64,000 nucleotides of DNA from an uncultured bacterium. GTDB lineage: Bacteria; Desulfobacterota; Binatia; HRBIN30; CADEER01. The notes below the pieces were generated by a model. The model searched no databases. It worked only from the letters and a program-made list of their open reading frames with translations, and was not told where the DNA came from. Shown here one piece after another: positions 6,476 through 64,000 of this stretch (positions are counted from its first letter, which is position 1; each line of letters opens with the position of its first letter). The translations under genes were made by a program, and so were the position numbers. Location: NCBI GenBank assembly GCA_902826395.1, contig CADEER010000001.1, positions 1 through 64,000 of the forward strand, written 5' to 3'.

Positions 6476-7081
6476 TTACTCCGGGTTGGCGCCGGCGGCG
6501 ATCCACGAGCGGATCGTGCCCACTTCGTCCTCCGACAGTGGCGGCTGGAACTGCGGCATTTGCGTACCCAATTCTGCCGGAACCGACCCTTCGACTTTGA
6601 TCAACAGGTAGCTGTTGTCCGGGTCGCCTGGATCGACGCGCAGCAGCCCCATGTCAACGGCGAAGAGGTTGAACGGTTCGACACCCACGATCTCGTCGTA
6701 TGCCTCATCGGCCTCCAGGCTCATGTCATTGGCCGGAAAAGCGCCGCTGTGGCAGGCGACCGTCGAGCACTTCTGGGTAAAGATCGCTTGAACTTCGGCA
6801 AATGTCGCACCCCCGCCACCACATCCGCCGAGGCTGGCAGCAACTGCGGCGACGAGCTCGTTGATCGAGACTGTGCCGTTGCCGTTGCCATCGACCGCGG
6901 GGCATGCCGACAGTTGTGAGCGTCCCAGGACGATGCTCACGCCGGTAATCAACTCGTTGATCGCGACGGCGTTGTTGTCGTTGCAGTCACCCGGGCACGA
7001 TTGCGCCACGGCACCGGCAGCGCACACCGTCAGAACTGCGAGGCATGAAACAGCAGCGGCTCGGAATCTTCTCATCGTCAT
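6476..7081 (-). CDS. exported dockerin-like/CX4CH cytochrome-like protein
   Basis: 201 residues from the ATG at 7081 (a second ATG at 7075 is equally possible). A signal peptide ends near AVAQS. A dockerin-like EF-hand pair follows at ~28-85 (CPGDCNDNNAVAINELI and DGNGNGTVSINELV). The C-terminal ~110 residues contain CSTVACH (CX4CH, a variant heme c motif) and PGDPDNSYLLIK ... QMPQFQPPLSEDEVGTIRSW, typical of planctomycete/deltaproteobacterial cytochrome c-like domains. It has the same dockerin plus CX4CH layout as the N-terminal half of the monooxygenase-like protein at 8357, so they are likely paralogous modules. The redox role is inferred. Confidence 0.8.
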   Translation of the reverse strand: MTMRRFRAAAVSCLAVLTVCAAGAVAQSCPGDCNDNNAVAINELITGVSIVLGRSQLSACPAVDGNGNGTVSINELVAAVAASLGGCGGGGATFAEVQAIFTQKCSTVACHSGAFPANDMSLEADEAYDEIVGVEPFNLFAVDMGLLRVDPGDPDNSYLLIKVEGSVPAELGTQMPQFQPPLSEDEVGTIRSWIAAGANPE

Positions 7082-7365
7082 TTCGGTCGTCTCTCTTCTC
7101 GGTTCAATCGGACGATTACAGACGCGGCGCCTCGCACTGTCAACGAGGCCGGGCCTCGGTACGTCGCCGCGACGCATCATCCGGCGCCATGGGGCAGCGA
7201 GCGGTCGCTGTCGTCGTTCAACCGCCTGTCTTGCCGCGGCCACCGCTCACCGGATAGGGCTCAGCCGCGCCGGAGTGTGCGCCAAAACGCGATGATTGAA
7301 TTCCCGTCCCTTCCCCCCGCGGTCACCGTGCCGTCCGCAGACGGGGCAGCCTCAGGAGACCCGGC

Positions 7366-8356: not shown

Positions 8357-10345
8357 ATGATGCGAGAGAAGCGATCGGTTTTCACGATCGCCGCGACAAC
8401 GGCGGCTGTTTGGCTCTTGGCCACAGGCGTTGCTCCGGCGAAGGCCCAACCCTGCCCCGGCGACTGCAACAACGACGCCGAGGTGGTGATCAACGAATTG
8501 GTGACGGGCGTAGGCATCGCCATGGGGAATCTGCGGATGACCCTGTGCGCGAACTTCGACCCCAACGAGGACGCCAAAGTTTCGGTGGGCGAGTTGGTGC
8601 AGGGCGTCCGCTCCGCTCTCGACGGCTGCCCGATCAATCTACGCGCCAAGACGTTCCGTTCGATTCAACAGGTTTTCGATCAGAGCTGCGCTCTCTCGAG
8701 CTGCCATTCGTCGATTGCCCGCCAAGGCGGGCTGGTCCTCAGCTCTGAGGATGTGTCCTATGCGAACCTCGTCGATGTGGCTCCCGAGCACCCCGATGCG
8801 GGGAGCATGGGACTCATGCGCGTAGCTTCCGGCGATCCGGAGAACAGTTTCCTGCTGCGCAAGCTGCGCGGAATGGGCCCCGGCGACACGATGCCGCAGG
8901 CGGGTGGAATGCTCTCCGAGGAGATCATCGAGGTCATCGAAGAGTGGATTGCTCGGGGCGCTCACTCGACGCTCGAAGAGTGCGAGGCGCTGGGTCCCTC
9001 GAACCAGGCGGGCGGCGGCGCCCACGGCGGACCGGTACAGACGGTTTGCGACGCTGAGCCGATCGATCCCGGAGACTTCGTCTGGGAGCCAGAGCCACCG
9101 CTTCCCGCGCCGGCACCTGGCGAGGGAGTTCAGTTGTATGTTCCGCCGCGGACAGTCGACGCGGGGACCGAATGGGAAAGCTGTTACGCGTTCCGCGTCG
9201 ACTGGCGCGAGCAGGGACGCCTGGTCGGGTTGACCAACGGCGGGACTCCAACCATCAAGTGGCAGGAGTACCGGATGCATGAGGGTAGCCACCACCTGCT
9301 GGTCTACGCCTACTTCGGTACCTACCGCGATTGGGAATGGCCGGAGGGTCATTTCCCCTGCTCCGCGGCCAACTGCATCCGACCTGGAATCTGCACGAAC
9401 AACACGTGCACCTCCGGCAAGGAAGGCGAGTCGTGCACGGTCGATGAAGATTGCGACGAGTGTCCGCCCGACGGTCGAACGATTCTACCGATCGGCGGTA
9501 CTCAAGTGGCCGGCACGCGCTACCAGGTGTTCTATCCCGACGGTGTCGGAATCCCGATCCTCGGGCCGGATTCGGTAATCATCGCCAATCTGCACTACAC
9601 GAACCCGTTCCAACCGGCCCAGGAGATTTATTCCGAAGCCTGGCTGAACTTCTACTTTCATGAGGTCGGCGAGTTCAAAGTCGTGCTGGACGGCATCTTC
9701 GCAATCGGTTTCAACGACCTGCTCGTCGAGCCCTACGAAACCCGTGTCATGGACACCATCTGGCGGCCGTCCGGCATTCTGACCGACCTCGGCGATGCGT
9801 ACGTGTTCCAGCTCTTCGGGCATATGCACAAGCGCGGTACCCTCTTCCAGATCGATCTGGTGCGCGGCGGCACTTGCTCGGGCAGCGGCAATCTCTGCGC
9901 CAAGGATTCGGACTGTCGCTGCCGCCCGGCCAATCGCAACTGCACGCCCGACCAGGTGTGCAATATCGGTCCGAACTACGAGGACACGACGATCTATCGA
10001 ACCAACGCCTGGGACAACGCACCGGTGGTCGACTACCCCGAGCCCTATCTCCTGGTCCCCAAGGATGCCGGCCTTCGCTACACGTGCGAGCACATCAACG
10101 GCATCGAGGGCGACGAAGACTATCAGCCCAAGAAGTGCCACGAGGGATGCCGCACCTGCGGTTGGGATCCCGAGACGCGCACCTGCGTCTTCGAGCGGGG
10201 CGTCCAACTCGGTTTCCACGACGAGGTGCGCACGTACCAGGAGGGCGAGCCGATTCCGCTGGTGTTTGGCGAGCTCGCCGACGACGACATGTGCAACATG
10301 TTTGGGTACTTCATCCCGGGCGACCAGATCGGCCGGTTGCCCTGA
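8357..10345 (+). CDS. exported PHM-like type II copper monooxygenase fused to dockerin-like and CX4CH domains
   Basis: 662 residues. Signal peptide 1-30; dockerin-like EF-hand pair 33-91 (CPGDCNNDAEVVINELV); cytochrome-like domain ~95-205 with CALSSCH (111-117, CX4CH). From ~240 on it resembles peptidylglycine/dopamine monooxygenase: HH at 312-313, His413 in NLHYTNP, HMH at 489-491 in FGHMHKRG, and Met645 in DDDMCNMF. These match the CuH (three His) and CuM (two His, one Met) ligands in order. Two Cys-rich inserts (~335-370 and ~507-535) carry DxDC motifs. Known relatives hydroxylate C-H bonds using O2 and a reductant; the substrate here is unknown. The CX4CH domain could supply electrons. 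A hairpin terminator follows. Confidence 0.8.
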   Translation: MMREKRSVFTIAATTAAVWLLATGVAPAKAQPCPGDCNNDAEVVINELVTGVGIAMGNLRMTLCANFDPNEDAKVSVGELVQGVRSALDGCPINLRAKTFRSIQQVFDQSCALSSCHSSIARQGGLVLSSEDVSYANLVDVAPEHPDAGSMGLMRVASGDPENSFLLRKLRGMGPGDTMPQAGGMLSEEIIEVIEEWIARGAHSTLEECEALGPSNQAGGGAHGGPVQTVCDAEPIDPGDFVWEPEPPLPAPAPGEGVQLYVPPRTVDAGTEWESCYAFRVDWREQGRLVGLTNGGTPTIKWQEYRMHEGSHHLLVYAYFGTYRDWEWPEGHFPCSAANCIRPGICTNNTCTSGKEGESCTVDEDCDECPPDGRTILPIGGTQVAGTRYQVFYPDGVGIPILGPDSVIIANLHYTNPFQPAQEIYSEAWLNFYFHEVGEFKVVLDGIFAIGFNDLLVEPYETRVMDTIWRPSGILTDLGDAYVFQLFGHMHKRGTLFQIDLVRGGTCSGSGNLCAKDSDCRCRPANRNCTPDQVCNIGPNYEDTTIYRTNAWDNAPVVDYPEPYLLVPKDAGLRYTCEHINGIEGDEDYQPKKCHEGCRTCGWDPETRTCVFERGVQLGFHDEVRTYQEGEPIPLVFGELADDDMCNMFGYFIPGDQIGRLP

Positions 10346-10444: not shown

Positions 10445-11956
10445 ATGCTTCTCAAGACCCGCAACAAGAACGTCCAGGAGAACGAGCGCGAGCTGCCGAT
10501 CCCGACGCAGCTCGTTTCCAACGGCGAGTACTGGCCGGTCCCGCAGACCCGGCATCAACGAAAGATCGAAGACCTCACACTCGGCATGGCCGACGAGCGC
10601 GCTCGCAAGCTCGGCATGTCGCGCAGATCGTTCCTGCGCTCCGCCGCCGGCACTGCCACCGCCCTGATGGCGCTCAACATCGCGAATGGATGTGGCAGCG
10701 ACGACGAAGGCGGCTTCATGGTCGACGACTGTGCCACCCGTGACCCTGATGCCGCGCGCGATCTCTTTCAGGCCGACTACTTCATCGTCGACGTCCAGAC
10801 GCATCACGCCGACCTCGACGGCCCGGTCGGATCGGTTCCCGCCCTGGGCGACTTCTACCGCAACTTCCGTATCTGCTACCCCGGCATGGATCTACCGGAC
10901 TGCACGCGCGGCGAGCTCAGTGAGCTGTCGCGCATGAACTACATAAAAGAAGTACTCGTCGACAGCGAGACGGCGGTGGCCATGATGAGCGGCCTGCCAG
11001 CACCCGCGGCAACGCTGGAGCTCATCGGCAACGATGCAATGGCGGCGACGCGCGACTTCGGCAACGAGCTCGGAGCGTCGCAGCGAATGCTCACACAAGC
11101 GATGCTCACGCCCAACCTGCAAGAGGCCGACACGCGGACGACTATCGCGGACATGGAGTACCTGGTGAACGTGCTCGGCATCCGGGCGCTCAAAACCTAC
11201 ACGGGCGCCGGCCATCGCGGCACCGATCCGGCAACCGCCATCTGGGGATCGACGCGGCCGTGGTGGCTAGACGACGAGGAAGTCGCCTACCCGATGTATG
11301 AGGAGGCGTTGCGGCTCGGCATAAACATCGTCAACACGCACAAGGGACTGCGCCTTGGAGTCTTCGACGCCGAGCACATCATGCCGCGTGATGTCCCGAA
11401 GGCCGCGCTCGATTGGCCCGACATCAACTTCGCGATTTATCACTCGGCCGGCGAGTTCCTCGACGACCTCGTCCAGATCAAGCGCACCCTCGACACCAAT
11501 CCGGCCTTCGCCAACAACCTCTACGCCGAGCTCGGCGCCATCTTCGCGAGCAACGTCATCTCGGGCGACATCAACCAGGTCGGACATCTACTCGGTAAGC
11601 TGGTGAATGCGTTCGGCACCGAGCGCATTCTCTGGGGAACCGACTCGATCTGGTACGGCACGCCGCAGTGGCAGATCGACGCACTGAAGACGTTTCAGAT
11701 GCCGCAGCGGCTGCGCGACGAGTTCGGGTACCCCGACATTACGCCGGACATCAAAGCGCGCATTTTCGGACTCAACGCAGCTGATCTCTATCAACTCGAC
11801 GCTGACGAGATCCGCTGCACGATCGCCGACGATCCGATCGCGCTGGTCAAAGCGGAGTACGGCAGCGAGCGCCATCGCAGCCTGCTCACCTACGGCCCGA
11901 AGACACGCCGCGACTTCATCCAGATGAACTACTCGGGCAAGGGCCCGCACGTTTGA
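10445..11956 (+). CDS. Tat-exported amidohydrolase family lipoprotein
   Basis: 503 residues, ATG at 10445 after a GGGGGG stretch. A twin-arginine signal SRRSFLRS (59-66) follows an unusually long cytoplasmic N-terminus, and a lipobox-like ANGC ends at Cys83, so the protein is probably exported folded and possibly lipid-anchored. The rest fits the COG2159/amidohydrolase_2 barrel: VDVQTHHADL near 115, NTHKGL, IYHSAGEF and WGTDSIWYG, which hold the usual metal and catalytic His and Asp. Such enzymes hydrolyse or decarboxylate ring or amide compounds. It follows the copper monooxygenase-like gene on the same strand, but a terminator lies between, so a pathway link is only suggested. Confidence 0.85.
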   Translation: MLLKTRNKNVQENERELPIPTQLVSNGEYWPVPQTRHQRKIEDLTLGMADERARKLGMSRRSFLRSAAGTATALMALNIANGCGSDDEGGFMVDDCATRDPDAARDLFQADYFIVDVQTHHADLDGPVGSVPALGDFYRNFRICYPGMDLPDCTRGELSELSRMNYIKEVLVDSETAVAMMSGLPAPAATLELIGNDAMAATRDFGNELGASQRMLTQAMLTPNLQEADTRTTIADMEYLVNVLGIRALKTYTGAGHRGTDPATAIWGSTRPWWLDDEEVAYPMYEEALRLGINIVNTHKGLRLGVFDAEHIMPRDVPKAALDWPDINFAIYHSAGEFLDDLVQIKRTLDTNPAFANNLYAELGAIFASNVISGDINQVGHLLGKLVNAFGTERILWGTDSIWYGTPQWQIDALKTFQMPQRLRDEFGYPDITPDIKARIFGLNAADLYQLDADEIRCTIADDPIALVKAEYGSERHRSLLTYGPKTRRDFIQMNYSGKGPHV

Positions 11957-12011: not shown

Positions 12012-14216
12012 TCACAGGCCGAGCGCCTCGCAACCTTCGAGACTCGCGCGCACGGCGAGCACCAGGTCCGACACGAGAATCCGGCCGCTGCCATCGCGAT
12101 CGAAGATTCCGCATGCCTCGACGGACAGCCCGAGCGACTCGCCAACTCCGCGAATCAACTCGTTGATCTCCGTCGTCCCGTCGAGATCACAATCTCCCGG
12201 GCAAGCGACGGCATAGGCGGTGATGCCGCCTGTCGGCCCCGACAGGCCGTACGGCGCGTACACCACGCCGTCGGTGATCGCAGCACCGCCGGCCACCGGC
12301 GCCGCGGTTGCGAAGCGCTTCAGAATGCGGCCGTCGGATGCATCGATGGCGTAGTAACTTCCCGGCGGGCACTCTTCGCGGCCGCAGGCAGGCTTGCAGG
12401 TCGTGTCGTTGCCACAGTCACCGATGAACATGATGCCGTTGACGACAGACGTGTGACTCCAGGTCTGATCGAAGGGCTGCGACCATGCCGTAACGCCGTC
12501 GGTGATCCGAAACGCCTGTAGATGATCTGGGTCGCGGCTCGGCACCGTGTCGTGCAAGCCCGCGTAAACGTGACCCGCATCGTACGCGATGGCTCCATTG
12601 AAGAGACCCCATGCCGCAAACCCCGGCGACACCGGTACCGCGACGACTTCGTTCTTCCAGACGTTCTCGCCAGTGTCTGAATCGACCGCGTAGAGAGACC
12701 CGTCTTTGCTGCCGGAGACGACGAGGGCTCGCCCGATGCCCGTTTCTGCCTCGGTGACGAACAGAGGGCCGTTGAGAAAGCCGAAGTCGTGGAAGGCTCC
12801 CTTGGCGCGGCACGTACCCGCGCTGCAGTCCGCGTCTTCGCGACACTCCGCACCGCCATCCTCCGGGCAATAGCCGAACTGTTCGGGAGGCTGCACTCGA
12901 TTCTTCCAGCGCAGCTCACCGGTGGCGGCTTCGAACGAAAGAAGACTGTCGGAATCGCCGACAGACGGGAACGTGAAGCAACCGACCGTGTTGGCAAACA
13001 CGATCTCGCCGGTCGAATCGACTGCGGGGCGGGAAGTGATGCCGGCGCCGCGCGCAACCACACAAGGACCTCCGCGCGGGCAGTCCGCATCTTCGTCACA
13101 CTCGATTGCGGTGTCGCTGCGACAAATCATCGCCGGAGTCGTGACGTAGCGCCACAGAACCTCACCGGTATCGAGATCGACAGCGACCAACTGCCCCTCC
13201 GATGCGCACGGCGAGTCGGCGACCGAGGCAATACCGACGAATACACGTCCGTTGGCGACGATCGCGGAGCCCCACATTTCGAGCTCTGGGACCTCGGTGA
13301 GTCGTGTCGACCAGAGCACTGTCCCATCACGGGCGTCGAGACACTCCAAAGTCTTGTCGGCTGTGATGATGACACGACCATCCGCGGTCAACGTCGGGCT
13401 GCCCTCGATACCAAGAAAGGCGGCTGAAGGAGCTCGGTAATGCCACACCACGTCGCCGGTTTCCTGATCCAGTGCGTAGATCTTACCGTTCCAGGCAGTA
13501 GCGAAGACCAGCCCGTAACCGACGGCTGGGGTCGACGTGATCGCCTTGAGCCCGCCGGGTGTACCCTCGAACGCTTCCACGTCGAACTGCCACTTCACAC
13601 CGAGCGCTCCGGCGTTGCTGGCGTCGACGAAAGTCTCCACCGGATTGGAGCGATGGTTTCCGTAGTTGTATCCATGTGACGGCCACCCGTGTGGCACACA
13701 GGCGAACGTCACACTGTCGCTGTCGGTGACCGAGCCTGCGGTGGTCGCCTCGATTCGAACCGTCGCCTTCTCGATCTGGTTCTCATCAACGCTGATCGAC
13801 AACGTCTGTCCCTCGGTGCAGACATTGCTGGTCGCTGGCACAAGCGCCGCCAGTGCCGCGCTCAGGCCGGCAAGCGGAACATCACCACCACCAGCGAATG
13901 CTTCCGCCGCTATCACGTCGTCCGCTTCGCAGGCCTCGAGCTCCGGAACGTCGTTGCGCAAGCACACGTCGATGTCGATAATGCACGCGCCGTTCTGAAC
14001 GCCGTCCAGATCGCAGCCCGCATCGCCATCGAAGCACCGCACCTCTTCGCGCGGCAGTGGCTCCTGTGGATTGAACGGCGGGAAGTTCAACTTCATCCGG
14101 GTCGTTGCGAATACCGCGTGACAATCGGTTTCCGGCGGGCCGCCTCCCGGTAGGGGCAGACTCGCCGCCGTGGTTGCGCTAAACACCAGCGCCAAGATGA
14201 CCATCAAGAGCCGCAT
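12012..14216 (-). CDS. exported PQQ-type beta-propeller protein with C-terminal dockerin-like pair
   Basis: 734 residues, ATG at 14216 with GGAGG seven bases upstream. Signal peptide 1-18. From ~190 to ~665 run propeller blades with the PQQ-repeat signature (ALDQETGDVVWHY, CLDARDGTVLWST, AVDLDTGEVLWRY, AVDSDTGENVWKN). Two Cys-rich inserts carry ECDEDADC and ECREDADC. The C-terminal 63 residues (672-734) are a dockerin-like EF-hand pair starting CPGDCDLDG. The fold is clear. Whether it binds PQQ as a dehydrogenase or is a structural propeller is not; I see no conserved catalytic Asp context or disulfide ring of quinoprotein alcohol dehydrogenases, so a non-enzymatic propeller is likelier. Confidence 0.82.
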   Translation of the reverse strand: MRLLMVILALVFSATTAASLPLPGGGPPETDCHAVFATTRMKLNFPPFNPQEPLPREEVRCFDGDAGCDLDGVQNGACIIDIDVCLRNDVPELEACEADDVIAAEAFAGGGDVPLAGLSAALAALVPATSNVCTEGQTLSISVDENQIEKATVRIEATTAGSVTDSDSVTFACVPHGWPSHGYNYGNHRSNPVETFVDASNAGALGVKWQFDVEAFEGTPGGLKAITSTPAVGYGLVFATAWNGKIYALDQETGDVVWHYRAPSAAFLGIEGSPTLTADGRVIITADKTLECLDARDGTVLWSTRLTEVPELEMWGSAIVANGRVFVGIASVADSPCASEGQLVAVDLDTGEVLWRYVTTPAMICRSDTAIECDEDADCPRGGPCVVARGAGITSRPAVDSTGEIVFANTVGCFTFPSVGDSDSLLSFEAATGELRWKNRVQPPEQFGYCPEDGGAECREDADCSAGTCRAKGAFHDFGFLNGPLFVTEAETGIGRALVVSGSKDGSLYAVDSDTGENVWKNEVVAVPVSPGFAAWGLFNGAIAYDAGHVYAGLHDTVPSRDPDHLQAFRITDGVTAWSQPFDQTWSHTSVVNGIMFIGDCGNDTTCKPACGREECPPGSYYAIDASDGRILKRFATAAPVAGGAAITDGVVYAPYGLSGPTGGITAYAVACPGDCDLDGTTEINELIRGVGESLGLSVEACGIFDRDGSGRILVSDLVLAVRASLEGCEALGL

Positions 14217-37625: not shown

Positions 37626-39557
37626 TCAGGGAAGGACTCGTACGACGATACTGGCCGACGGACCAAGCTGGCCGATCGTGTTGCGAATTCTAACCGTCAG
37701 CAACGTGTCGCCGACGCCGAACGCGAGCTCGGACCCAATGCCGACCTGGGGGCAGAACTGAAGCGTGCTCGTCGGATCGACGAAGATCGGATTGGAGGAG
37801 AAATCTCGTGTGCACGTTTCTCCCGCCGTGCGGGCGCTGAATCGGCACGCGAAGTCGTTGATCGCGTTTGCCGTCGCTTGCGATCCTCCGAAGGCGGGCG
37901 GGACCACCGCCGGAACACCGCCAGGCGTTCCGACGGTCGTGACGCCGTCATCGCAGACCTTCGTGCTGCCGTTGCCGAGAGCTCGATTGGCTATGATCAA
38001 GAAATCGGGGAGCGCCGAAGGATCGCCGGGATTGTGATTGAACGTGTTCGTGCCGATCGGACGGAAATCGAGACCGCGACGCGCCTCGACGAACACGAAG
38101 AACCCCTGCGGTAGAACGCGCTCGTAGATCGGATAGCCCTCGGGAGTGGTCCCGACGGGATCCGTGACGATTCCATCGGCGCGTGCGATGCCGAAATGCG
38201 TCACTACCGGCCCGCTGCCTTCAATAGTTGGAGTAAAGGTCGGTCCCGCAGTTCCCGTTCGCGTCGGCGTGCGTGTCGAGGTCGGCGTTCGGGTAAACGA
38301 CGACGTGCGCGTCGGTGTCGCAGTCGGCTGCACGAGCGGCGTCCGGGTGACCGTCGGCGTGCGGCTCGGCGACTCGGTGCGCGTCGCCGTGCGGGTGCGC
38401 GTGGCAGTGTTCGTGCGAGTGTCGGTAGCTGTCCCCGGAGCGGTCCGCGTCGGCGTACTGCTTCGCGTCGGCGTCGCGGTTCGCGTCACCGTTGACGTGC
38501 GCGTTGGGGTAAGCGTGCGAGTCCGAGTCTGAGTCGGAGTACTCGTGGCAGGGCTGGTGTTCGTACGGGTGACTGTCACCGTCCGCGTCAAGGTCGGCGT
38601 ACGGGTGATGGTCGCCGTGCGCGTCCGCGTTTCGGTCCTCGTCGGGGTCCGAGTCACCGTAAGCGTCGTGGTGCGCGTCCGCGTCTCAGTCTTCGTCGCA
38701 GTTCCCGTCACCGTGAGCGTCGGGGTGCGGGTCCGCGTTTCCGTTCTCGTCGCGGTTCCCGTCGGTGTCAGTGTCGGTGTCCGCGTGACGGTGCGGCTCG
38801 GTGTCGACGTCCTCGTCGGCGTACCTGTTTGAGTCGGCGTCCGCGTTCGGGTCGACGTCCGCGTCGCCGTGCCGGTGCGTGTCGTCGTGCTCGTGCGCGT
38901 CGGCGGGTCGGTGCGAGTCGGCGAGCTCGTTTGTGTCGCAGTGCTCGTGCGCGTGGCCGTCGGCAGAGTGCCCGTCGGGGTCGTGGAGGCTGTTTCCGTG
39001 GCAGTCGGAGTACGGGTGGCCGTCGGCGTGCGGGTCGGCGTCACGGTACGGGTCGATGTCGGCACATCGGTGTCGGTTGGGACGGCGGTACTGGTCGACT
39101 CCGCGGACGCAGTCGGCGATGCCGCCTCCGTCGCAGTCGGAATCGGCGTGTCCGTCGGCACCACCGCGGTCGCGCTTGCCGTCGGCAACGGCGTAGGAGT
39201 TTCGCTGCCCGGGATCGGCGTGTCGGTGGCTGTCGGTGTGGCGGTCGGAGACCCCGGTGTCCCCGGGGTCTCCGTCGGCACCTGGCAGCCCTCGAGAGAA
39301 TTGCGCACGGCGCGAATCAACTCATTGATCTGGACCGTCAAATCGGAGTTGCCGTCCATCGGCGGGCATTCCTCGACGGGCGCGTTGCCGATCGAGATGC
39401 CCACGCCGCGAATCAGCTCGGCGATCGAAACGGTGAGATCTGCGTTGCAGTCGCCGACGCAGGGAGGAGGGATCTGAGCCGGCGCGGAGGACACGACCAG
39501 TACGACCCCAATGGTCGCGACCATGATTACCCGGCTGAATCCCAACCCCGTCCTCAT
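37626..39557 (-). CDS. exported dockerin-like/Thr-Pro stalk protein with C-terminal four-Cys domain
   Basis: About 643 residues from the ATG at 39557; a GTG at 39584 or ATG at 39578 are alternatives, none with a good ribosome-binding site. Signal peptide (VIMVATIGVVLVVSSAPAQ), dockerin-like EF-hand pair (CVGDCNADLTVSIAELI ... NSDLTVQINELIRAV), ~350 residues of Thr/Pro/Arg repeat, then a ~195-residue domain (37629-38213) beginning GPVVTHFG and ending SIVVRV. This last domain is shared with the gene at 41890-43590 and has four conserved Cys (KVCDD, ACRF, TCTR, QFC). Probably a surface protein held away from the cell by the stalk. Function unknown. Confidence 0.8.
   Translation of the reverse strand: MRTGLGFSRVIMVATIGVVLVVSSAPAQIPPPCVGDCNADLTVSIAELIRGVGISIGNAPVEECPPMDGNSDLTVQINELIRAVRNSLEGCQVPTETPGTPGSPTATPTATDTPIPGSETPTPLPTASATAVVPTDTPIPTATEAASPTASAESTSTAVPTDTDVPTSTRTVTPTRTPTATRTPTATETASTTPTGTLPTATRTSTATQTSSPTRTDPPTRTSTTTRTGTATRTSTRTRTPTQTGTPTRTSTPSRTVTRTPTLTPTGTATRTETRTRTPTLTVTGTATKTETRTRTTTLTVTRTPTRTETRTRTATITRTPTLTRTVTVTRTNTSPATSTPTQTRTRTLTPTRTSTVTRTATPTRSSTPTRTAPGTATDTRTNTATRTRTATRTESPSRTPTVTRTPLVQPTATPTRTSSFTRTPTSTRTPTRTGTAGPTFTPTIEGSGPVVTHFGIARADGIVTDPVGTTPEGYPIYERVLPQGFFVFVEARRGLDFRPIGTNTFNHNPGDPSALPDFLIIANRALGNGSTKVCDDGVTTVGTPGGVPAVVPPAFGGSQATANAINDFACRFSARTAGETCTRDFSSNPIFVDPTSTLQFCPQVGIGSELAFGVGDTLLTVRIRNTIGQLGPSASIVVRVLP
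38222..39280 (-). repeat. Thr/Pro-coding low-complexity repeat (about 1 kb)
   Basis: Imperfect 6- and 12-base units coding TxTxTPT-like peptide (for example TRTPTATRTPT). The same kind of repeat occurs at 134-702. It is the stalk of the surrounding exported protein. It is prone to length change by slippage and to misassembly; the plus-strand Val/Gly frames here are shadows. Confidence 0.85.
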
Positions 39558-62823: not shown

Positions 62824-62850
62824 CCCGCCAACAGGCTTGCGGCGAGATGC

Positions 62851-64000
62851 TCAGCAGCCGTCCAGGGCGCTGTTGACGGCGCGGATCAACTCGTTGATCG
62901 CGATGTTGCCATCGCCGTTGCCGTCAGCGTCGAAGCAGCGGTCGAGCGCGCCGCCGTCGAGGGCGTAGTTGACCGCGAGGATCAGCTCGTTGATCGAGAC
63001 GCGTCCGTCGCCGCCGCAGTCGCCCGGACAATACTCACGCGCGATCGACCACAGCTCGGTTCCGACGTCGTCACCCGCAGCAACGAAGAAGACGCGCGGC
63101 CCGATCAGCGTAAAGTCACTTGGGCTCGAAGACGAGCTGGTCGCGGCGAGATCACCGACCGCCCGCGTGCCGCCGGCCGTGCCATCGCTCTCCCACGGCT
63201 CGCAGCCGCTGGTCGGCGTGCACGCCTGGAATAGAAAGGAGCTCCCACTGCTCGGCGTCAGGAACGCAGGGAACGATCCCGGCGCACCCGGGTTGAGATC
63301 GGCCACCAGAGCCGTACCGCCCGTCGTACCATTGCTGCGCCACAGCTCGACACCCAGCTCGCCGTTCTGCGCGGCGAAATAGAGAGTGCGATCGACGTTG
63401 GCGAACGAGAAGAAGAACGTGAAGAAACCAAACGCGTCGCCGAACGGGTTGATGTCGGCAACGCGGCGCGTCCCCTGCTGCGTGCCGTCGCTGACCCAGA
63501 GCTCCTCGTCGCGAATGCCGTCGTCGGCGGTGAAGTAGAGCCGACCGTCGACGTTGCGCAGGAACGACGGCGACGAGCTCTGCGGGCCGGCGAAGATATC
63601 GCGGATCATCGTCGTCCCGGCGGCGGTCCCGTCGCTGATCCACAGCTCGGTGCCATGCTCGCCGTCATCGGCTCCAAAGATCAATTGCTCGTCGAGCACC
63701 GTAAAGAAGAGAAACCCCGGCACCGGAAACGCATGGCCCTCAGGGTTGAGGTCCGTCACGAGTCGGGTGCCGCTCTCCGTTCCGTCGCTGACATAGAGCT
63801 CCAGGCCAACCTCGCCGTCGTCGGCGATGAAGAACAACTGGTCGCCGACGCTGACGGGAAACAGCGGAAATGAGCCCACCGGACCGGGCCTGAGATCTCG
63901 CAGGCGCGAGGTCCCGTCCGCAGTGCCGTCGCTGCGCCACATCTCGATGCCCGACTCGCCGTCGTCGGCGGTGAAGTAGAGTACGTTGCGGTGCACGAGG
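62851..64000 (-). CDS. ELWxSDGT-repeat protein with C-terminal dockerin-like pair (5' end outside window)
   Basis: An open frame from the window's right edge; a GTG at 63996 is probably internal. At least six ~50-residue repeats with the core (E)LW(V/I)SDGT--GT (for example GIEMWRSDGTADGT, GTELWISDGTAAGT) and LYFTADDG predict a beta-propeller or beta-solenoid. The last ~65 residues are a dockerin-like EF-hand pair, CPGDCGGDGRVSINELI and CFDADGNGDGNIAINELI. Export is expected but the N-terminus is not visible. Function unknown; similar repeats occur in large secreted proteins. Confidence 0.85.
   Translation of the reverse strand, partial: LVHRNVLYFTADDGESGIEMWRSDGTADGTSRLRDLRPGPVGSFPLFPVSVGDQLFFIADDGEVGLELYVSDGTESGTRLVTDLNPEGHAFPVPGFLFFTVLDEQLIFGADDGEHGTELWISDGTAAGTTMIRDIFAGPQSSSPSFLRNVDGRLYFTADDGIRDEELWVSDGTQQGTRRVADINPFGDAFGFFTFFFSFANVDRTLYFAAQNGELGVELWRSNGTTGGTALVADLNPGAPGSFPAFLTPSSGSSFLFQACTPTSGCEPWESDGTAGGTRAVGDLAATSSSSSPSDFTLIGPRVFFVAAGDDVGTELWSIAREYCPGDCGGDGRVSINELILAVNYALDGGALDRCFDADGNGDGNIAINELIRAVNSALDGC

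Follow-up and report, generated by a model that had tools for sequence, protein, structure and literature searches.

The gene at positions 8357–10345 of the forward strand of the window, which is the whole 64,000-nucleotide stretch of DNA that was analyzed, encodes a protein that combines a two-copper core of the PHM/DBH type with a c-type cytochrome domain in a single polypeptide chain. The protein is interpreted, with a probability of roughly 0.6, as an exported copper monooxygenase with the fold of PHM and DBH, in which the joined mono-heme c domain serves as the electron donor in place of ascorbate. This interpretation draws on the fold of the copper core, on the copper ligand set and its conservation, on the homology of the heme domain to cytochromes and on the occurrence of the fusion in many genomes.

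Domain organization of the fusion protein

The reading frame is uninterrupted from 8357 to 10345 (+), and its translation yields a 662-residue protein that is predicted to be exported. From the N-terminus to the C-terminus, the chain contains a signal peptide-like start, an EF-hand/dockerin-like pair, a CX4CH domain and a PHM/DBH-type two-copper core. The predicted Sec signal peptide (residues 1–30, MMREKRS...APAKA/Q; 8357–8446, +), as read from the sequence, is followed by the EF-hand/dockerin-like pair (residues 33–91; 8453–8629, +) with the loops DCNNDAEVVINE and DPNEDAKVSVGE (alignment A4). The cytochrome c domain (residues 95–205; 8639–8971, +) contains the CX4CH heme attachment motif CALSSCH, which provides Cys111, Cys116 and His117 (residues 111–117; 8687–8707, +). 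The copper core consists of two β domains. The PHM N-terminal-type domain (9104–9661, +), which was delimited by structure prediction, Foldseek and the PHM register, houses the CuH site with ligands His312-His313 (9290–9295, +) and His413 (9593–9595, +). The PHM C-terminal-type domain (9674–10321, +), defined by Foldseek and the PHM register, houses the CuM site with ligands His489 and His491 (9821–9829, +) and Met645 in the DDDMCNMF motif (10289–10291, +). The residue positions given for all of these motifs in the preliminary description (CALSSCH 111–117, HH 312–313, H413, HMH 489–491 and M645) agree with the translation. Judging from the sequence, copper and heme chemistry in the periplasm would fit both the export signal and the many cysteine residues of the protein.

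The copper core matches the PHM/DBH fold

Pfam and NCBIfam searches of the window protein, PF01082 and PF03712 included, detected no copper-monooxygenase domain, and the HMM search for the Pfam copper-monooxygenase domains that had been suggested earlier thus produced no match. A family alignment and a fold search were therefore used instead. The alignment (A1) comprises 38 homologues that share 26–76% identity with the window protein and that were chosen on the basis of their HMM scores, without regard to motifs. AlphaFold2 prediction from A1 produced confident strands over most of residues 240–660, insertions excepted, in a model with an overall pLDDT of 69 and disordered linkers. When this model was compared with the PDB using Foldseek, the top 31 matches were all PHM or DBH structures (E-values of 1.4e-9 to 3.6e-7; TM-scores to the target of up to 0.62), and the first unrelated match appeared at an E-value of 1e-4. 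The preliminary description had named a predicted fold lacking the two PHM β-sandwiches as the outcome that would contradict its assignment; the predicted fold instead retrieved the PHM and DBH structures.

All six copper ligands of the window protein are in register with those of rat PHM in an alignment that was built via intermediate relatives and that contains a rat PHM core sequence identical to 1SDW. At the CuH site, His312-His313 and His413 correspond to PHM residues H107-H108 and H172, respectively. At the CuM site, His489, His491 and Met645 correspond to H242, H244 and M314, respectively. Direct sequence comparisons were less far-reaching. A phmmer search of the PDB with the window protein returned no match, the family profile retrieved no PHM among its PDB matches, and an hhalign comparison of the family with PHM alone aligned only the Met motif, at a nonsignificant level. 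PF03712 matched 8 of the 38 A1 relatives weakly (best E-value of 0.0063), and the failure of PF01082 and PF03712 on the window protein is read as a limit of profile reach. Because direct sequence similarity to PHM is not significant, the PHM assignment rests on fold and ligand register. The model and the alignments support the placement of the window protein in the PHM/DBH fold with the six-ligand set in register, and the PHM/DBH-type identity that had been proposed from the ligand pattern is borne out by the fold match, by the six-ligand register with rat PHM and by ligand invariance.

The best PDB match of the core is the double β-sandwich of rat PHM (1PHM, 1SDW and 3MLL), in which the CuH and CuM ligands occur in the same order. 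The window protein is nevertheless distant from PHM (∼11% identity) and differs from it by large Cys-rich insertions, the fused heme c domain and the lack of a PAL domain. Dopamine β-hydroxylase (DBH; 4ZEL) belongs to the same fold family; it too is a secreted hydroxylase with two coppers and an additional domain at the N-terminus. The extra domain of DBH is a DOMON domain, not a c-type cytochrome, and DBH is ascorbate-dependent.

Conservation of the metal ligands and replacement of the PHM substrate residues

In A1, the part of the window protein that starts at position 95 covers 568 residues, 33 of which are invariant across the 38 sequences. The invariant histidines are exactly His117, His312, His313, His413, His489 and His491 (6 of the 15 histidines in this stretch), and the invariant methionines are exactly Met179 and Met645 (2 of 10). 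If alignment columns are treated as independent, the chance that ten preset columns are all invariant is ∼1e-13, or ∼1e-7 when only C, H and M columns are drawn. The invariance of the ligands across the 38 divergent homologues led to the rejection of a chance origin of the motifs.

The substrate-binding residues of PHM have a different fate. Residues Arg240, Tyr318 and Asn316 of rat PHM, which bind the peptide carboxylate of the glycine-extended substrate, align with Phe487, Phe649 and Asn647 of the window protein, respectively. Given the absence of the peptide-binding Arg240 and Tyr318, a PHM-like peptide substrate is unlikely, and the protein was not filed as a PHM (EC 1.14.17.3).

Natural ligand variants are found among the relatives. 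In one paralogue in the window genome (L117, G000:C89:50–1771), the six copper ligands are all gone (HH to SR, H to R, HxH to QLH and M to A), and the heme motif, CTLVFCH, is retained. Because the ligands disappeared jointly in this paralogue, the six residues appear to form one functional unit that is kept or lost together. The same protein, a natural pseudoenzyme, carries a C-terminal dockerin-like pair. In two other relatives (L058, G000:C83, and L105, G064:C8:63329–63709), His replaces the CuM Met (NEHCNLF); the former has a heme domain, and the latter does not.

The altered sites of these three proteins, together with the replaced substrate residues, could be taken to mean that the PHM fold and its copper sites were kept while hydroxylation was lost, leaving a protein for copper or redox storage, sensing or binding. 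This explanation is considered improbable because both sites, including the CuM Met, are fully conserved in the 38 divergent members, which points to catalysis.

The CX4CH domain is related to c-type cytochromes

The CALSSCH segment had been described as a possible heme c domain, and profile comparisons identify it as a true relative of c-type cytochromes. The C-terminal part of TIGR03806, the model of the SO2930 family of diheme cytochromes c, matches the window heme domain with an E-value of 1.7e-9, at a score so far below the whole-protein cut-off that the window protein is not a TIGR03806 member. PSCyt1 (PF07635) was found by Pfam in 21 of 36 members. The window domain differs from both of these profile families in its CX4CH motif and in its fusion to a copper core. 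In an hhalign comparison, the heme-domain profile aligned with a CXXCH mono-heme protein from a Novosphingobium plasmid over 96 columns (E-value of 2e-19). The best matches of the profile in the PDB were the hydrazine synthase α subunit, FoxE and cytochromes c6; only the first two of the six profile matches had E-values below 0.01, and one of the six is an unrelated ribosomal protein.

The CX4CH motif is invariant in 36 of 36 heme domains, and the two cysteines are always separated by four residues. All members also contain an invariant Met-Pro motif 60–73 residues past the heme motif. Met179 of this motif in the window protein (Met179-Pro180; Met179 at 8891–8893, +) is, from the sequence, the likely distal heme ligand. 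The AlphaFold2 model of the heme domain is confident and helical (pLDDT of 91.6). A Foldseek search of the PDB with this apo model found no significant match; weak matches (E-values above 1) included some c-type cytochromes (FoxE, SorU, PsbV2 and OmcF). The assignment of the cytochrome fold therefore rests on the sequence profiles.

Could the CX4CH segment lack heme altogether and use its cysteines for a disulfide or as a site for another metal? The spacing differs from that of canonical CXXCH, the PDB relatives displayed in the alignments all lack CX4CH, and the structural search with the apo model was without a significant match. Opposed to these points are the homology to CXXCH proteins, the invariant distal Met-Pro, three Cytochrom_C_asm maturation genes over the cut-off in the window genome and the precedent of MmcA, in which a CXXXXCH motif carries heme c, as shown by mass spectrometry (PMC11024163). 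A heme-free segment is accordingly regarded as highly improbable.

One relative has a CX5CH motif (CAASGVCH; L101, G091:C31) in its heme domain. A stand-alone CXXCH relative of the heme domain, annotated as hypothetical, is encoded on plasmid pNL2 of Novosphingobium aromaticivorans (L128, NC_009427.1) in a neighborhood of oxidoreductase genes (ring-hydroxylating dioxygenase and FAD oxidoreductase).

The fusion is maintained across a large family

Of the 148 genomes of the class that were searched, 31 contain relatives of the window protein. The window genome itself encodes 13 PHM-like proteins by profile search, ten of which combine a heme domain with the complete ligand set (the window protein, C85, C217, C128, C46, C168, C139, C26, C41 and C94). 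The remaining three are the Met-to-His protein G000:C83, the permuted protein G000:C98 and the ligand-free protein G000:C89. Orthologues with 60–76% identity are present in three other genomes. In the phylogenetic tree, the window protein groups with the orthologues of two congeners and of G064 (support of 100/100), and a long branch separates this group from a main group of 32 members. A near relative is found in the metagenome-assembled genome Deltaproteobacteria bacterium OFTM157. Two deep relatives of the window group (L042, G016:C124, and L037, G006:C1) contain PD40 β-propeller repeats after the copper core.

Phylum-wide profile searches, in which three candidates were scored per genome, detected full-length relatives only within the class, and copy numbers in genomes other than that of the window are for the same reason lower bounds. 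No full-length relatives were found in plasmids and viral contigs. Pfam recognizes almost none of the family members: PF03712 exceeded its cut-off in only 2 of the 395 genomes of the phylum sample, and the two proteins concerned are the Met-to-His variants G000:C83 and G064:C8.

The preliminary description had proposed a search for the same domain order in other genomes. The fusion proved to be common there, and the position of the dockerin-like pair to be variable. The pair is N-terminal in the window protein, is inserted into the copper core, between HxH and Met, in most paralogues of the window genome and is absent from the G064 orthologue. In the permuted protein (L157, G000:C98:2363–4090), the dockerin-like pair and the copper core precede a C-terminal CX4CH heme domain. 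That this protein is permuted yet fused suggests that the link between the heme domain and the copper core matters, rather than their order.

The copper core could be a monooxygenase that receives its electrons from small, diffusible reductants, with a heme c domain that is not the donor and instead accepts reaction electrons, senses the redox state or docks another partner. Such a role would suit a general module, and the heme domain does occur alone or on unrelated proteins (6476–7243 in the window; G000:C17, C25 and C69); the permutation in G000:C98 may be read in the same sense. In opposition, the heme domain and the copper core are joined in 38 of 38 A1 members, the ten proteins of the window genome listed above keep both parts complete, and PHM chemistry requires two outside electrons per turnover. 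A non-donor heme is thus rather unlikely, and the donor role is preferred.

The EF-hand/dockerin-like pair

The repeats that had been described as a dockerin-like pair are real and span approximately residues 33–91. They are mostly of the EF-hand type: among 36 copies of the pair, Pfam detected EF-hand_1 in 26 and Dockerin_1 (PF00404) in 14, the latter at E-values of 0.1 or below (best E-value of 1.8e-5) and not in the window copy. The pair occurs at ∼100 places in the window genome. A cohesin search of the genome yielded one match over the cut-off (E-value of 2.4e-6) and one below it; the former is an apparent lipoprotein (L158:2278–2979, G000:C145). Tethering of the window protein by its dockerin-like pair is plausible, and anchoring is possible in view of the ∼100 dockerin-like copies and the one lipoprotein-like cohesin protein. 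A cellulosome-like organization was not adopted because the many dockerin-like copies face only one cohesin over the cut-off. Within the window, the pair is also found in proteins encoded at 12012–14216, 39276–39518 and 62836–63039 (all −), and one of these three copies sits on a PQQ-type β-propeller protein.

Gene neighborhood

An Amidohydro_2 hydrolase with a Tat signal (10445–11956, +; PF04909, E-value of 5.7e-13) is encoded 99 bases downstream of the fusion gene. In G064, the order is opposite, with an amidohydrolase homologue immediately upstream of the fusion. In G094, such a homologue is directly upstream of a lipoprotein-like copy from a different subgroup. Since the two genes are paired in three separate ways, each in a different genus, a functional link between the amidohydrolase and the fusion is likely. 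Amidohydrolase and family matches also lie near each other in the sister of G094, G095, and are ∼3.6 kb apart in G101. The loci with this association besides the window are L066, L143 and L145.

On the other side of the fusion gene, an exported protein (6476–7243, −) consists of only an EF-hand/dockerin-like pair and a CX4CH cytochrome domain and shares 42% identity with the N-terminal part of the fusion. This neighbor is syntenic in two congeneric genomes and is a candidate for a separate electron carrier that partners the fusion. Proximity itself was not counted as functional evidence for the dockerin-cytochrome gene or for a neighboring ZIP transporter gene because the whole surrounding block, from acyl-CoA synthetase to 2-oxoglutarate dehydrogenase, is syntenic in the genus.

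Proposed mechanism

The scheme that we infer for heme loading, electron direction, hydroxylation, docking and the pathway is as follows. The two coppers would act as in PHM. CuH, coordinated by His312, His313 and His413, would store and pass on one electron, and CuM, coordinated by His489, His491 and Met645, would bind O2 and hydroxylate a C–H bond of a periplasmic or extracellular substrate. The heme c domain, as a single-electron carrier, would take electrons from periplasmic carriers and deliver them one by one to CuH, replacing ascorbate. The substrate would be something other than a peptide with a C-terminal glycine that is bound in the PHM manner, and the Tat-exported amidohydrolase may process the product of the copper enzyme. 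The EF-hand/dockerin-like pair would be a calcium-binding element that probably serves to anchor or dock the protein.

For cellobiose dehydrogenase and LPMO, it is an established principle that a secreted copper monooxygenase receives single electrons from a heme domain. That system differs in that its cytochrome is of type b and is usually a protein distinct from the copper enzyme, which contains a single copper.

Significance

The animal relatives of the window enzyme amidate hormones (PHM) and make noradrenaline (DBH). Long-standing questions about such enzymes are how electrons are supplied to a PHM-type core without ascorbate and how they are transferred between two coppers that are ∼11 Å apart with no bridge. 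No description of a heme c–PHM fusion was found in the literature searched, which covered mainly papers available without subscription. The parts are known, whereas their combination, in which a two-copper core of the PHM type carries a heme c of its own and has expanded and diversified, did not turn up in that literature. More broadly, and tentatively, the class may harbor a large set of PHM-type monooxygenases that need neither ascorbate nor an outside reductase for electron entry because each has its own heme c, that are present at about a dozen copies per genome, that act on different extracellular substrates and that are invisible to current profiles. Because Pfam misses most PHM-like proteins of the class, the spread of bacterial two-copper hydroxylases is probably underestimated. 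The heme of such a natural fusion is visible by spectroscopy, which allows electron entry to be followed directly by optical means, and natural controls are available within the family in the copy without copper ligands, the Met-to-His group and the permuted copy.
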